A stretch of DNA of 34,015 nt from a virus: positions 1 through 34,015 of the IMG/VR virus record IMGVR_UViG_3300008448_000333; one strand, given 5' to 3'. The stretch's first letter is position 1; each line of letters starts with the position of its first letter. Both the position numbers and the translations under genes were made by a program. The notes under the pieces are model-generated. The model made no database searches and had not been told where the DNA came from. It was given only the letters and a program-made list of their open reading frames with translations. Below, piece by piece: positions 1,846 to 6,835 of the stretch.

Positions 1846-2826
1846 TTACTGTTTACGATTGCGAATCATCGCAAGGATGTCTTGCGCACGACTTGAATTA
1901 TCGCCGTTAGCTGTTGATGCTGCTGGCGCTGCTGTTGCAGGTGCAGATTTTGCAGTCGACACAGGCTCGTCGTCGGCATCTTCATCGACTTGAGGTCTAG
2001 CAACAGCTTTATTCGGATCGCCTGTGGCAGCACTCATTCCGGCTGGCTTGAAATATTGACCCCAACGGTCCATATCATAAGCTTCTCCGTTAACTGATGC
2101 TTCGAACATTTCTTTCATTACTTTTAGTTCGACGTCTGTGGGCTTTTTAGGCAAGAAGTCTGAAAGATTAAAGAGTCCGTGCGACTCGATCGCCGATTTC
2201 TCTTGGTCAGTTAATGAACGCTCACGACGACTCCATTTTGAAGTACTGTAGTCAGCAAAACCGCCTTTGCTGGTTTTAGCGATGCGGAAGTCAACACCAC
2301 GCAGGAAGTCAGTTGGCAATTCTTCCAACTCTGGATCCATTAGTGCTGAACGGATGATTTGATAGATTTGAGGACCAATGATAAATCTACGGATAGGGTT
2401 ATCTGGTGTAGTATCTTCTTTGAGTGGATCTTCAACCACATATCCTTGGAAGATGTATGAACGTTTCTTCCAATACTTACGGCCCATTTCTTCTAGTGAT
2501 TTGTCTTTAAACCAACCACGTACTTCTGATAGGATTGGACAAACAGTACCATCGTTGTACATTTCTACACAGGGGACCTGTACTTGTACCTGACGCGAAT
2601 CAGTTTCTCCTTTTACACCCGCAAACGGCAATTTAATCATTGCACGTTCTACCCAGAAGAATGTATTGTTGGCGTTGCCATCAGGTAAGAAACGTACTAC
2701 GGCTTCTTTGCCTTCTTGCATATTCCAATGTGGGTAAATTGCGTTGTCGCCACCGCCGGTGGAGTTTCCTGAAGTTTTGTTTTGTGCTTCTTGAAGTTTA
2801 GCACGAATTTCTGCTAGTGTTGCCAT
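1846..2826 (-). CDS. 32: gp32-like single-stranded DNA-binding protein
   Basis: A 326-residue protein with T4 gp32 organisation: a short basic N-terminal segment (AEIRAKLQEAQ, the cooperativity region), a Gly/Ser linker, a central OB-fold core and an acidic, Ala-rich C-terminal tail (DEDADDEP near 279-286) of the kind that recruits replication proteins. It coats single-stranded DNA during replication and recombination. The core carries VPCVEMYNDGTVCPIL at about 84-99 and WKKRSYIFQGYVVEDPL, both typical of T4-like gp32. Only two cysteines (C86, C96) are present, so the T4 zinc site (His plus three Cys) is incomplete. A perfect AAGGAGG Shine-Dalgarno sits 7 nt before the ATG, fitting high expression, and a strong terminator follows. 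Confidence 0.95.
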   Translation of the reverse strand: MATLAEIRAKLQEAQNKTSGNSTGGGDNAIYPHWNMQEGKEAVVRFLPDGNANNTFFWVERAMIKLPFAGVKGETDSRQVQVQVPCVEMYNDGTVCPILSEVRGWFKDKSLEEMGRKYWKKRSYIFQGYVVEDPLKEDTTPDNPIRRFIIGPQIYQIIRSALMDPELEELPTDFLRGVDFRIAKTSKGGFADYSTSKWSRRERSLTDQEKSAIESHGLFNLSDFLPKKPTDVELKVMKEMFEASVNGEAYDMDRWGQYFKPAGMSAATGDPNKAVARPQVDEDADDEPVSTAKSAPATAAPAASTANGDNSSRAQDILAMIRNRKQ

Positions 2827-2955
2827 TTTGTAGCCTCCTTATGCCTTAATGTAAATGACTTTTTATATGCCTTTCGCATAACAACTATTATGCGCTTTTT
2901 ATTTAGCAAATGCAAATAGTTTCTTATCAAATGTGAATATTATTTCACCAAAAGA
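2827..2955 (-). promoter_or_regulatory. 32: gp32 leader and candidate early promoter
   Basis: This gene-free leader has an AAGGAGG Shine-Dalgarno at 2834-2840. A possible sigma-70 promoter is CATAAT (2887-2892) with TTTGCA 18 nt upstream (2911-2916). A perfect inverted repeat CGCATAA/TTATGCG (2875-2881 and 2888-2894) overlaps the -10 box. A late-like GCTAAATA lies at 2900-2907, too far from the ATG to match the usual spacing. T4 gp32 is autoregulated through its leader; I see no clear pseudoknot here. Confidence 0.35.
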
Positions 2956-2979
2956 AAAATCCACGTTAACCGTGGATTT
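2952..2979 (-). terminator. Intrinsic terminator over the end of the small remnant ORF
   Basis: The minus-strand stem AAATCCACG/CGTGGATTT (nine pairs, loop GTTAA at 2966-2970) runs into a T-rich stretch ending at 2955. The loop contains the TAA stop codon of the remnant ORF, so terminator and gene end are fused. Confidence 0.85.
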
Positions 2980-3145
2980 CTCTATATTTGAGCAAAGCTA
3001 ACTGTCTAGCTAAGAACAATCTCCATCGTATATATTCAGGAAGATCGTTGTCCTCGTCATGTTCTATCTTCGGAGTATTGTAACCTCTATGTATTGAATC
3101 TTCAAAGACAAATTCAATTTCACAATCATCTAAAGATAAAATAAT
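2966..3145 (-). pseudogene. Start-less small ORF, probably a remnant gene
   Basis: A 59-codon frame reads well as protein: IILSLDDCEIEFVFEDSIH, then a stretch containing PKIEHDEDND, then LPEYIRWRLFLARQLALLKY. It ends at TAA inside a terminator loop. No in-frame ATG, GTG or TTG lies near its 5' end; the first codons are ATT ATT. The frame stays open backwards into the end of the host-like gene at 3159. Either it uses a rare ATT start or its true start was lost when the host-like gene came in. Similar small proteins are common in T4-like phages, but I cannot name a family. Confidence 0.5.
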
Positions 3146-3158
3146 CGTTCGATGAGGA

Positions 3159-3362
3159 TTACTTCTTAGCAGGCTCGGCTTTTGCGTCTTTCTTAGCGTC
3201 GCTTTTGGTAGGCTCGACCTTTTTGTCAGCTGGCTTGGCTGCTGGAGCGGCTGCTGCCGGTTTGGCTTCTTCCTTTTTAGCGGGTGCTGCGGGTGCTGCG
3301 GGTGCTTGTGCGAAAGCGGATACTGCGAATAATGATGCTACTAGAGCTAGAACTGATTTCAT
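3159..3362 (-). CDS. Secreted Ala/Pro/Lys-rich small protein, host-like
   Basis: A 67-residue protein with a clear signal peptide: MKSVLALVASLFAVSAFA, hydrophobic core at 4-16 and an AFA-Q cleavage site at about 18/19. The mature part is low-complexity Ala, Pro and Lys with scattered Glu/Asp (PAAPAKKEEAKPAAAAP). It would be exported to the periplasm as a disordered, basic protein. The style, including the AFAQAPA junction, is that of small proteins of Burkholderiales and related betaproteobacteria, and it is richer in G+C than neighbouring genes. An AAGGAGAT Shine-Dalgarno precedes the ATG. It follows a terminator and so needs its own promoter. The function is unknown; transfer from the host is likely. 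Confidence 0.8.
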   Translation of the reverse strand: MKSVLALVASLFAVSAFAQAPAAPAAPAKKEEAKPAAAAPAAKPADKKVEPTKSDAKKDAKAEPAKK

Positions 3363-3453
3363 ATGAAATCTCCTTTTTTGAATTTACGACAGCGAAATTG
3401 CTGTGCGTATATATATAACGTCTTAGAAAAACTTACGTTGACATTAATGTCAA
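3363..3453 (-). promoter_or_regulatory. Upstream region of the host-like gene with a perfect 16-bp palindrome
   Basis: TTGACATTAATGTCAA at 3438-3453 equals its own reverse complement and starts immediately after the upstream terminator. It contains a TTGACA that could be a -35 box, but the hexamer 17 nt downstream (TTTTCT) is a poor -10; a TATATATA run lies further down at about 3408-3416. A small hairpin ACAGC/GCTGT sits in the presumed leader. Together these suggest a promoter with an operator, though no single promoter is convincing. Confidence 0.4.
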
Positions 3454-3475
3454 GAAAAAGGGCACCAAAGTGCCC
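3454..3475 (-). terminator. Intrinsic terminator after the large late gene
   Basis: On the minus strand a perfect GGGCAC/GTGCCC stem (3470-3475 and 3460-3465) with a TTTG loop is followed by TTTTTC. It closes the packaging block and separates it from the host-like gene. Confidence 0.9.
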
Positions 3476-3497: not shown

Positions 3498-5237
3498 TTA
3501 TAAGCCTGCTAGTTCTCTAACTCTTGCCAATTCTGCCAATTCTGGATTTTGTTCAGTGGTCTGTTGCGGAGCCATACGCTCTACAAATTTACGAGCAACA
3601 TTTTCCGCCTGTTCGCCAAATTTCTTGCCTACCATAGTACATACGCCTTCTGGGCCTTTAGGGAATGTACCTGATTCTTTGTCATAGAATGAAGTGATAA
3701 ATTCTGCTAATTCTTGAACGCTAAGTTTCTGCGGTTCTTGCCCTTGATCCATGTCTGCCATTTGAGGTTCTTCTGCTGGAACCTCTGCTGGAACCTCTGC
3801 TGCAGGCTCTTCGCCGGCCGCAGGCTCTTCAACAAAATCTCCAAAATCTAATTGATCTACCACTTCCGGAGAATTAGATTCCAACCAATCCTTAACTAAC
3901 CCTCTAACACAGCTATCAGGATCTTCTTTAGCCTGATCTTTGATCTGTTTGAATAGTTCGGGATCCTCAATTATGCCTTTTAAACTTTCTATAGCATTCG
4001 ATCCGTCTACTCCAGCCGGAAAATGCTCGCCTACTAGTTCCTGTAATTGTTGTATAGCTGCCTGTTGTTCTTCTTGATCTTGGCTCACTATAGCCGATTC
4101 TTCGCCTAGTGCGTACACCCACTTTTCAAAATTTTCAAAAGGGTCGTTGTTATGCACAGCAGTCTCTTCGTCTATTTCTGCTTGTGTTGTCATTTCGACT
4201 ATGTCGTCATAGCCTATTTCGTTTTCTTTCATTAATTTATATAATACCGGAAATACGTTTTTAATATCTTCTTTGAAGTTCCTAACTGTAAATTGATCAG
4301 TAAATTGTTCTACAACTTCTTCTGGTACATCTAATCTTTCTTGTGCCTCAAAATTTTCTCTATAAGCTTCATAATGGCTCTGTTTAGATAATGCCTTGAT
4401 TTGTTCTCTTAATCCGTTTAGATATTCTGAACTACGTTCTACAATATTGTTATTCATTGAATTCATTAGATCATTACGAACAACATAATTGCCAAAGCTC
4501 TTTAATTGAGCGATTTCTTCACTCATTCCAATAATACTTTTACCTATGTCGTCATACGGCAAACCGCCATTGGCTACATGGCGTTGCATAGCTCGAGCAC
4601 CTGCTAGATGAACAAACGGATATTTGAATCTCTCGCCATCTTGATTTTCTACAAACAGTGCTGAAATATTTCTAGTTCTTGCACCCGGCTGTGTGTCATC
4701 CATTACTGCTTGATTGTGTTTAATTATTAGTCGAGTATCTTCTAATTTTTGGTAGCTCACAGTTTTAGATCCGTACAAAGAGCTTTCGCTGACAACATTT
4801 GTCATAATATTTTCTCCAACTGGTTGTTGTATTACTTGATTTGGTTCAGATGGTTTAGGCTTGTTATATTGAGAAAGAAATTCATAATCTCTTTTATCTA
4901 GATTATCTTTTGCGATATCTCTAGTATCAAACGCCATCAATCGTCGTTTGGCAAAATTTCTTAATTCTTTTAGAAATCCGTACCAATTAGTTTTTTGGGT
5001 ACTGTCCATCGATTCTGTGATGCCAGAACTGAAATAGACTTTCATAGAATTAGGTTCAGCTAGACTTACACTGACGTGTCCTATAGGGCGTTCTCCTTCC
5101 ATATAGTCAAAGTCAAAAAATCTCGCATCTTCAGGATTGATAGTAATTTGGCCCATCTCATCGCCTAATTTCAACCCCTGGAATCTGCTTCTAATTTTAA
5201 AGAATAAGTCCGTAGCTATATTATTTGTTGCATTCAT
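3498..5237 (-). CDS. Conserved uncharacterised T4-like virion-block protein (579 aa)
   Basis: The start is taken as the ATG at 5237 (MNATNNIATDLFF), not an upstream TTG, because a late promoter octamer lies 5 nt before this ATG. The protein has a folded N-terminal half with GERFKYPFVHLAGARAMQRH and SFGNYVVRNDLMN, which I recall from uncharacterised proteins of marine T4-like phages. The C-terminal half is acidic, with a Pro/Glu/Ala-rich linker (PAAEVPAEVPAEEPQM near 485-500) and a final helical region. It follows terL with its promoter overlapping the terL stop codon, and ends at a terminator. Late expression suggests a structural or packaging-related role; no catalytic motif is visible. Confidence 0.8.
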   Translation of the reverse strand: MNATNNIATDLFFKIRSRFQGLKLGDEMGQITINPEDARFFDFDYMEGERPIGHVSVSLAEPNSMKVYFSSGITESMDSTQKTNWYGFLKELRNFAKRRLMAFDTRDIAKDNLDKRDYEFLSQYNKPKPSEPNQVIQQPVGENIMTNVVSESSLYGSKTVSYQKLEDTRLIIKHNQAVMDDTQPGARTRNISALFVENQDGERFKYPFVHLAGARAMQRHVANGGLPYDDIGKSIIGMSEEIAQLKSFGNYVVRNDLMNSMNNNIVERSSEYLNGLREQIKALSKQSHYEAYRENFEAQERLDVPEEVVEQFTDQFTVRNFKEDIKNVFPVLYKLMKENEIGYDDIVEMTTQAEIDEETAVHNNDPFENFEKWVYALGEESAIVSQDQEEQQAAIQQLQELVGEHFPAGVDGSNAIESLKGIIEDPELFKQIKDQAKEDPDSCVRGLVKDWLESNSPEVVDQLDFGDFVEEPAAGEEPAAEVPAEVPAEEPQMADMDQGQEPQKLSVQELAEFITSFYDKESGTFPKGPEGVCTMVGKKFGEQAENVARKFVERMAPQQTTEQNPELAELARVRELAGL

Positions 5238-5242
5238 AGTTG

Positions 5243-5250
5243 TATTTATC
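5243..5250 (-). promoter_or_regulatory. Late promoter GATAAATA for the 579-aa gene
   Basis: GATAAATA on the minus strand matches the T4 late consensus TATAAATA at seven of eight bases. It includes part of the terL stop codon (TGATAAATA) and ends 5 nt before the ATG at 5237. Confidence 0.75.
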
Positions 5251-6835
5251 AAAATCCAGTGCTTACAAATATAGGCATAGGCATCTGCTCTTCTGAGATT
5301 TTCTCCGTCATTTTTTCGTAGATATGAGGATCCCAGTCACTGAGTACATTAGCCATTCGTATAACTAACAAAATGCCCGAAATCAAATCGTCATGTTCTC
5401 CGGTTTTAGCTCCAAACCCAATACCGTGTGCTACATAGGTTTTTAGTTCTGATATCAAGGGTTTTGAATATATCCTCATTTTACTAGTTTCTAAAAGATT
5501 TTTTAATTGGCTGCAAGCAGAAATTTTAGTTCTATGTGTTGTATTAAATCCCTTACGGAATTTACGAACGTGTCCTTTTCTTATGGGTTCAGATAAGAAT
5601 AACCCCGGAAAGTTTTCTTCGCCAATATCTCGAATAACAATTAAAGCAGCTTCGCCTAACGTATTGTTTTCAACGCTGTAATAAATCTGTGCTGCGCTGC
5701 CCTTTTCTTGAGATCTAGTTTCTATGTACTTGCAAATTTCTCTTAGATGTTTTATCTGGGTTTGTATAGGTGTTAGATTATGTCTCCACTCTGCTACCTG
5801 TTCCATGCTAGGCATTTCGAATACCTGAATAGCAGCGTAGTCTCCCCCTGTGCCTAAACTGGGATCTAATGCTACTAGGTAAGTGGCTCTTGGATCTATA
5901 TCTTTATACCAACGAGTCTGACCCATGGTCATTGAAGGTTCTTTTCCTTGAAGCTCTGCCAACTTAACTGCATTAATTAGTGTTTCGTCGAAGATCAAGA
6001 ATTCACAGTCAAATTCTCTACGGAAACGTTCTTCTCCTATTTTTGCTCTTTCAGTTCTTGCCCACTCTTCGTCCCTGTCAGGATGCTCGTTCCAGTGAGC
6101 AAAGTAACTGAAAAAACCGTTAACTCCTATCTCTTGTTCATTACCGTATTCGTCAAATTTCTTACTTGCCTCAGTCCAAATCATAGCGAACTGATCTTCG
6201 TCTGAGTTGGGAGTCGAAGTGATAATAGCGCGGCCGCCTGTGGACAAGGTCGGCGATAACGCAGTCCAAAATTCCTTGGCTTTTTCCGGCGGTTGTACGA
6301 ATGCGAACTCGTCGCAGTAAATTAATGAAAGAGATTTACCACGACCCGTATTTTCTGTGGTAGTAGTTGCTTGAATACGAGCACCGTTATCGAATTCAAT
6401 AGTATTTCTATTATAGCTTATAACCCCTGCTCTAATAAAATCTGGAAGATTTTCATAACCATAGCGATATCGATTCATGATATCCTGAGCACCTTCATAT
6501 TTGTGAGCAGCAATCAGAACCTGTGCTTCAGGAACAAATTGTGTGAACCACAAAAGGTATCCGCAGGCACAGGTAGTTTTACCCATCTGTCGAGGTAGCA
6601 TAGCGATAACATCTTTATGGTTATGATATGCTTCTATTAATCTTACCTGATAATCGTAAGGTTCGAATGCAATCGCTCCTCGTACAGGATGTTGTATTTT
6701 TAGAAAATTTCGCATGAAATACAACGGACCGTCAACCGGATCCATGCATTTTTCTAGATGCTCAACTTCTTCTAGTGTATACTTCTGCGTTTTATGAGCT
6801 TTTTTAATTAAAACGCCGTCTAGTGATTTTCCCAT
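5249..6835 (-). CDS. 17: Terminase large subunit (gp17)
   Basis: A 528-residue packaging motor and nuclease that drives DNA into the prohead and cuts concatemers. The N-terminal ATPase has Walker A LPRQMGKTT at 80-88, Walker B LSLIYCDE at 169-176 and the coupling motif TSTPN at 206-210. The C-terminal RNase-H-like nuclease has D324 (VALDPSLGTGGD), E389 (YYSVENN) and D482/D483 (GEHDDLISG). The length is slightly shorter than T4 gp17 (610 aa). A late-type ATTAAATA lies 5 nt before the ATG, directly behind the terminator of the upstream gene. In T4 gp16 sits next to gp17; here three extra genes separate them. Confidence 0.97.
   Translation of the reverse strand: MGKSLDGVLIKKAHKTQKYTLEEVEHLEKCMDPVDGPLYFMRNFLKIQHPVRGAIAFEPYDYQVRLIEAYHNHKDVIAMLPRQMGKTTCACGYLLWFTQFVPEAQVLIAAHKYEGAQDIMNRYRYGYENLPDFIRAGVISYNRNTIEFDNGARIQATTTTENTGRGKSLSLIYCDEFAFVQPPEKAKEFWTALSPTLSTGGRAIITSTPNSDEDQFAMIWTEASKKFDEYGNEQEIGVNGFFSYFAHWNEHPDRDEEWARTERAKIGEERFRREFDCEFLIFDETLINAVKLAELQGKEPSMTMGQTRWYKDIDPRATYLVALDPSLGTGGDYAAIQVFEMPSMEQVAEWRHNLTPIQTQIKHLREICKYIETRSQEKGSAAQIYYSVENNTLGEAALIVIRDIGEENFPGLFLSEPIRKGHVRKFRKGFNTTHRTKISACSQLKNLLETSKMRIYSKPLISELKTYVAHGIGFGAKTGEHDDLISGILLVIRMANVLSDWDPHIYEKMTEKISEEQMPMPIFVSTGF

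Follow-up and report, generated by a model that had tools for sequence, protein, structure and literature searches.

A probable two-frame phage gene in which an exported protein is extended by +1 frameshifting

Two adjoining reading frames on the minus strand of an uncultured phage, here called SP and dn, probably form one two-frame gene, in which programmed +1 frameshifting near AAG_UAA would yield a minor signal peptide-linker-dn protein. The window, the whole stretch of 34,015 nucleotides analysed (IMG/VR virus record IMGVR_UViG_3300008448_000333), carries them in a locus of nearly constant gene order: TerL, a structural gene, SP, a gp32-like SSB, (a small ORF), UvsX and a small ORF (Table 1; functions of neighbouring genes are from PHROGs). 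The SP-bearing phages are uncultured relatives of T4-like jumbo phages, and all relatives of the SP-dn unit are metagenomic contigs. By terminase, the closest named phages are PA5oct-like Pseudomonas phages and Sinorhizobium phage Phosso, at 52-54 % identity. One contig nearly identical to the window, L003, differs in having its terminase ORF in two pieces (1375-2925), through either a frame disruption or an assembly error.

Table 1. Positions of the features discussed (window coordinates except for the Cys ORF, which is given by contig)
Feature	Position	Strand	Details
gp32-like single-strand DNA-binding protein (SSB)	1846..2826	minus	phrog_1192, E 1e-62
Downstream terminator hairpin	2953..2983	minus	GAAATCCACGGTTAACGTGGATTTTTC + T-run; fold -21 kcal/mol, z -6.1
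dn	2969..3160	minus	+1 frame relative to SP; 64 codons (NPHRTIILSLDD...LPEYIRWRLFLARQLALLKYREIHG); stop TAA 2968-2966
SP gene	3159..3362	minus	0 frame; 67-codon ORF; last codons AAG_TAA
CTAAGAAGTAA at SP stop	3159..3169	minus	candidate +1 shift region; invariant in the window's group
Last SP codons	3161..3181	minus	+1 reading K-P-S-L-L-R-S matches residues before NPHR of in-frame dn proteins
5' leader hairpin	3385..3409	minus	TACG-C-ACAGC-AATTTC-GCTGT-CGTA
Promoter-like element	3408..3443	minus	ACGTTATATATATA from 3421 downward; TGTCAAC upstream; conserved before SP in relatives
Upstream intrinsic terminator	3460..3475	minus	GGGCACTTTGGTGCCC-TTTTT; fold z -3.6
Head/structural protein homologue	3498..5252	minus	phrog_13484, E 1e-14
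Cys ORF	L211 1698-1886; L219 2796-2987; L223 2814-3002; L227 2811-2996; L230 2814-3002; L081 4452-4646

The SP protein consists of MKSVLALVASLFAVSAFAQ followed by APAAPAAPAKKEEAKPAAAAPAAKPADKKVEPTKSDAKKDAKAEPAKK, the cut being drawn behind the conserved A-x-A region, and comprises a Sec signal peptide (residues 1-18/19) and a ~48-residue Ala/Lys/Pro/Glu tail; the likeliest cleavage point, judged from the residues, lies between AFA and Q. The signal peptide was assigned from its n/h/c pattern and the conservation of that pattern, with n-region Lys, hydrophobic core and A-x-A motif all kept in the family alignment. The family median for the tail is 49 residues with a net charge of +5, and the plus strand over the SP interval contains five stops. 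The 69 related loci in IMG/VR, a nearly constant gene position, a dN/dS of ~0.25, an A-x-A-type motif where it would be expected in 88/88 distinct homologues and an SD ahead of the SP start in 92/92 +1-type loci (AAAAAAGGAGATTTCAT-ATG in the window) together argue that the SP ORF is a genuine gene, beyond chance.

Behind SP lies the second coding frame, translated in the window as NPHRTIILSLDDCEIEFVFEDSIHRGYNTPKIEHDEDNDLPEYIRWRLFLARQLALLKYREIHG. It shares a transcription unit with SP, and its stop codon falls within the loop of the downstream terminator hairpin. In the window no ATG, GTG or TTG precedes the domain in the dn frame, which explains why dn is missing from the ORF list and why ordinary gene finders would not call it. 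The domain was recovered in ~100 loci by tblastn and HMM, and a dn-seeded search returned 80 loci, in part the same as the earlier ones. The 106 distinct dn places comprise 92 in the SP+1 frame, 3 in the -1 frame and 11 without an overlapping SP (5 truncated by the contig or locus end, 6 in-frame fusions); the loci are mutually related, so that counts for dn and SP are not independent, and the SP-finding rule overlooked a few SP genes.

Comparison of these loci shows dn to be protein-coding, selected in the +1 frame and frame-locked to SP. The dN/dS is 0.256 in the dn frame versus 0.874 and 1.543 in the other two, and stops number 0 in 3,459 codons versus 302 and 532. The stretch between the SP stop and a conserved dn anchor takes 14 different lengths, spanning 40-54 codons, and keeps the +1 relation in all 92 loci. 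No start codon (ATG/GTG/TTG) with an SD occurs in the dn frame in any of the 92, and in 30 of them, the window included, there is no ATG/GTG/TTG whatever ahead of the domain. Both ORFs are under purifying selection in a constant +1 relation, as in a +1 frameshift gene, and dn lacks a separate initiation site. An AlphaFold model of dn (mean pLDDT 70) is confident only in a C-terminal helix, 42-63.

We infer ribosomal frameshifting as the route to dn. The promoter-like element and leader hairpin would give SP and dn a separate mRNA, whose translation would start at the SP ATG and proceed through the signal peptide into the Ala/Lys/Pro-rich (AKP) tail. Most ribosomes would terminate at AAG_UAA and release product 1, a ~48-residue exported, disordered, positively charged protein. 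A minority would shift +1 near the SP end and read into dn, giving product 2, composed of signal peptide, flexible linker and dn, with a length of 131 residues if the exact slip point is AAG_UAA. Were the fusion exported, dn would work outside the cytoplasm, tethered by the AKP tail and probably making contact through its C-terminal helix, and the linker would presumably be exported in two forms, either free or bearing a head group, at a set ratio. An envelope role in infection, for example in lysis timing or superinfection control, is plausible as a class by analogy with T4 RI (PMC8385771), though we hold this class to be less likely than not.

The transcription signals agree with an independent unit. 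The initial annotation had described a 67-aa signal-peptide ORF flanked by terminators on either side and preceded by a leader of its own, and the ORF, both terminators and a leader hairpin are all present on the minus strand. The promoter-like element occurs in one strong copy only in the window. Upstream of SP in most loci stands TGTCAAC...(A/G)CGTTATATATATA, followed by a leader hairpin of varying sequence (window 3443-3385); the former is probably a phage promoter class and the latter, retained in 52/56 leaders, probably mRNA-stabilising.

Folding z-scores drop right after the SP stop, with no other drop within 100 nt upstream. The mean downstream z is -4.27 in the TGA group, -3.15 in a second group (group B) and -1.28 in the window's group. 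Group B possesses a covariation-supported 10-bp hairpin starting ~17 nt after the stop, a distance farther than usual, in which 97.7 % of cells are paired and 32 are double-changed versus 10.8 in shuffles, slid controls scoring far lower. Downstream of the SP stop the window's group shows no clear conserved hairpin (window z -0.66), and an Rfam search of the window gave no matches.

AAG plus stop, found in 80/81 distinct SP tails, is the sole element common to nearly all junctions. None of the known slippery P-site codons (CUU, UCC, CCC) precedes the stop at the SP junctions, where AAG stands instead, and to our knowledge AAG_UAA is not among the recognised bacterial shift sites. Within the window's group the last four SP codons are frozen (AAG 51/51; AAG 49/51; GCT 39/39 or CCT 11/11; CCT 35/40 or GCT 11/11), the same choices elsewhere in those SP genes running at 0.34-0.52. 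The base following the stop is T in 72/92, a context usually taken as efficient termination. The minimal open +1 overlap, 65 nt in L112, places the slip within the last 21 SP codons, provided that the site is homologous throughout.

Counting against a frameshift at AAG_UAA, re-pairing from AAG to AGU is poor. Some ordinary genes of these phages likewise terminate in AAG_TAA (22/102 Lys-terminal long ORFs), and AAG is not dn-specific, since nine SP genes without dn are likewise AAG-terminal; for this reason the last-codon test was dropped as sole proof. Openness of the +1 frame within SP was not counted either, being trivial for Ala/Lys/Pro codons, and bypassing of the T4 gene 60 type was set aside, as inspection by eye revealed no take-off/landing codon match in the right frame. 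A more daring reading, less likely than not, is that AAG_UAA (or AAG_UGA) is a new recoding signal that sends ribosomes +1 without classical P-site re-pairing, and that other lineages have replaced it by a classical -1 site or an in-frame fusion while keeping the exported two-part protein.

The same two products would arise if ribosomes slipped at a Lys codon ahead of the stop (AAA_R, for example AAA at -8/-7), the last SP codons being dual-coding, a possibility of real weight that we nonetheless do not favour. For such a slip, AAA to AAG re-pairing is perfect, all 81 tails contain an in-frame AAA with A/G as the next base, and where codons -7 and -8 encode Lys they are AAA in 45/47 and 34/37 cases, the expected share being 0.48. 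The third bases are frozen at codons -4 to -1, and in-frame dn relatives share K-P-x-[LIV]-[LF]-x-[SG]-N-P, more fully K-P-K-[LIV]-[LF]-x-[SG]-N-P-H, encoded by different codons (TCT, GTA GGT), which favours a slip ahead of the stop. Against it, AAA_R is too common in these genes to confer specificity, codons -5 and -6 vary freely, and SP-only genes retain much of the same ending. The junctions accommodate two readings, either a recoding signal with a slip at the stop or a required K-P-x-L-L-R-S with an earlier AAA_R slip.

Relatives of the window appear to reach dn by other routes. In three divergent phages, L063, L064 and L236, dn lies in the -1 frame. SP ends in GCA_AAA_AAG_TAA in L063 and L064, with a strong predicted fold starting 3 nt after the stop, and in ACA_AAA_AAA_TAA in L236, with a 7-bp hairpin starting 1 nt after it; the respective post-stop folds are -26, -19 and -12 kcal/mol. 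A_AAA_AAG is the dnaX heptamer, and all three junctions combine an X_XXY_YYZ heptamer, a short spacer, a hairpin and a -1 downstream ORF, as in dnaX-type sites. Six further loci (L081, L211, L219, L223, L227 and L230) encode dn within a single, independently started ORF whose signal peptide differs from that of SP (for example MRHLVVFTALITMIATTSLA, followed by NTK after the cut), and these in-frame fusions suggest that exported dn is what selection keeps. In L081, dn is present as a gene separate from SP. The nine SP genes with no dn behind them, eight of them closely followed by terminator-like hairpins, indicate that product 1 appears useful alone.

A small conserved Cys ORF (MLMRT...CPTPDCDTKR.GPCK) overlaps in-frame dn, with dn and its signal peptide in the +1 frame relative to it, and the two have the appearance of a genuine overlapping gene pair. 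A sequence similar to the Cys ORF seems present immediately ahead of SP in L041 and L105.

Expression of dn as a separate gene, through termination-reinitiation at the SP stop or a non-canonical start codon, is unlikely. SP and dn do abut, and CTG, ATT, ATC, ATA or ACG occurs near the stop in most dn frames; these near-cognate codons share no common place, however, and the canonical starts all lack an SD. Nor would reinitiation account for retention of the +1 frame across 14 spacer lengths, or for the switch to -1 in just those loci that have an A_AAA_AAG/A site. Programmed frameshifting from SP into dn remains the preferred reading.

Occurrence was assessed in 62 contigs with both flanks, found via the SSB gene and not via SP. 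Thirty carry SP and dn (27 by a strict rule plus L088, L097 and L105, where SP was detected separately), 5 carry SP only and 27 carry neither. L075, whose SSB is identical to that of the window, is a natural empty site, the cassette being gone between AACGTAAGTTTTTCT and (AACGTGGA)TTTTTCTTTTGG. This empty site and the occurrence pattern show the SP-dn unit to be a discrete cassette that can be removed from its fixed site. Alignment of L075 2735-2938 with window 2950-3445 puts the junction at two TTTTTCT copies, and no dn copy turned up elsewhere in the 40-kb L075 contig in a search that included a positive control. In L092 and L109 (and L084) a C-terminal extension of the structural protein fills the SP-less gap before SSB, and in L008 (8455-8757) another signal-peptide Ala/Lys/Pro-rich protein (MNKLIFVAGLALALSFSAQA...CDIKKDPKCKD...), different from SP, sits right behind the SP-dn unit. 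No annotated gene separates the structural gene and SSB in Pseudomonas phage Ettore and Xanthomonas phage XbC2, and neither SP nor dn was found in the cultured phages searched, one search being open to low-complexity masking.

SP had initially been read as an auxiliary gene unlike any phage core gene, a host-like betaproteobacterial cargo. Its accessory character holds, with SP in about half of related phages; it recurs, at the same time, as a locus across this phage group and is, on our reading, half of a two-frame gene. The host origin fares less well, and capture of a small exported AKP-rich betaproteobacterial protein seems distinctly unlikely. In its favour are the signal peptide and composition of SP, which we take to resemble those of small exported proteins of freshwater Burkholderiales. 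Against it are the fixed phage locus and the third-position GC of 0.38, like that of phage neighbours (0.28-0.36); the overall GC of 0.52 stems from Ala/Lys/Pro codons. As far as the tools used reach, the best matches are only in other phages: a genome scan of 84,980 species with one degenerate signal-peptide pattern gave two weak low-complexity hits in unrelated phyla, a plasmid search with SP gave no match, and neither SP nor dn scored above cut-offs in Pfam, PHROGs or NCBIfam, yielding no convincing bacterial homologue in a bacterial search for SP that is narrow, the genome scan having used that one pattern and BLAST masking low complexity. Two matches, to the NCBIfam chryseobasin precursor (E 0.006, far below the family cut-off) and, over 30 residues, to PDB INO80 subunit B (E 0.002), were rejected as low-complexity chance. 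The dn half, too, has no relatives beyond these phages in the collections searched. Joining of the two frames by transcriptional rather than ribosomal slippage is very improbable, as the seven A at the L236 junction have no counterpart in most +1 loci, the window among them, which carry no run of at least 7 equal bases there.

Phage frameshift genes known so far are mostly tail chaperones and capsid or tail proteins; here, if the proposal is true, frameshifting sets the ratio between two forms of an exported protein. The ~100 related phages constitute a natural experiment in which dn is reached by a +1 shift, a -1 shift or direct fusion, or is absent, and this variety makes the recoding signal dissectable by comparison. 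The locus also illustrates how annotating a small phage ORF as 'hypothetical' can overlook half a gene. Among the titles and abstracts retrieved on jumbo phages and ribosomal frameshifting, none describes such a gene. PRFect bases its search for forward shifts on stretches of three or four identical bases (PMC10274946) and would probably miss AAG_UAA.

The dnaX-type arrangement of A_AAA_AAG heptamer, stop, hairpin and -1 dn is confined to L063, L064 and L236 and is not that of the window. T4 antiholin RI, a small protein that carries a cleavable signal peptide and acts in the periplasm (PMC8385771), offers only a functional analogy to SP, and it is not known to be encoded in two frames. The prfB and antizyme +1 sites combine, as SP-dn would, a shift at a slow stop with two overlapping conserved ORFs, but place CUU or UCC ahead of the stop together with an SD or pseudoknot, neither of which is seen in SP-dn (PMC5009743, PMC10274946). 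With AAG as its P-site codon, the SP-dn site falls outside the prfB, antizyme and PSA types. The closest known site to AAG_UAA is the Euplotes +1 motif AAA_UAR, in which a Lys codon also stands directly ahead of UAA and the +1 frame also goes on with AAN (PMC5011710); that site belongs to a ciliate with altered termination and uses AAA, whereas SP-dn belongs to a bacterial phage, uses AAG and coexists with ordinary genes that also end in AAG_TAA. In overall design SP-dn would be like cps/tsh of Listeria phage PSA, where a +1 shift at or beside the stop lengthens a minority of the products of a phage gene at the C terminus (PMC5009743). The PSA genes encode structural proteins and use CCC_UGA or CCC with a pseudoknot, whereas SP-dn would encode an exported protein at AAG_UAA, with no pseudoknot shown. 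As with PSA, related phages may reach the same extension by a -1 shift or without a shift, and in the G-T tail chaperones related phages use -1, -2 or +1 (PMC5009743).
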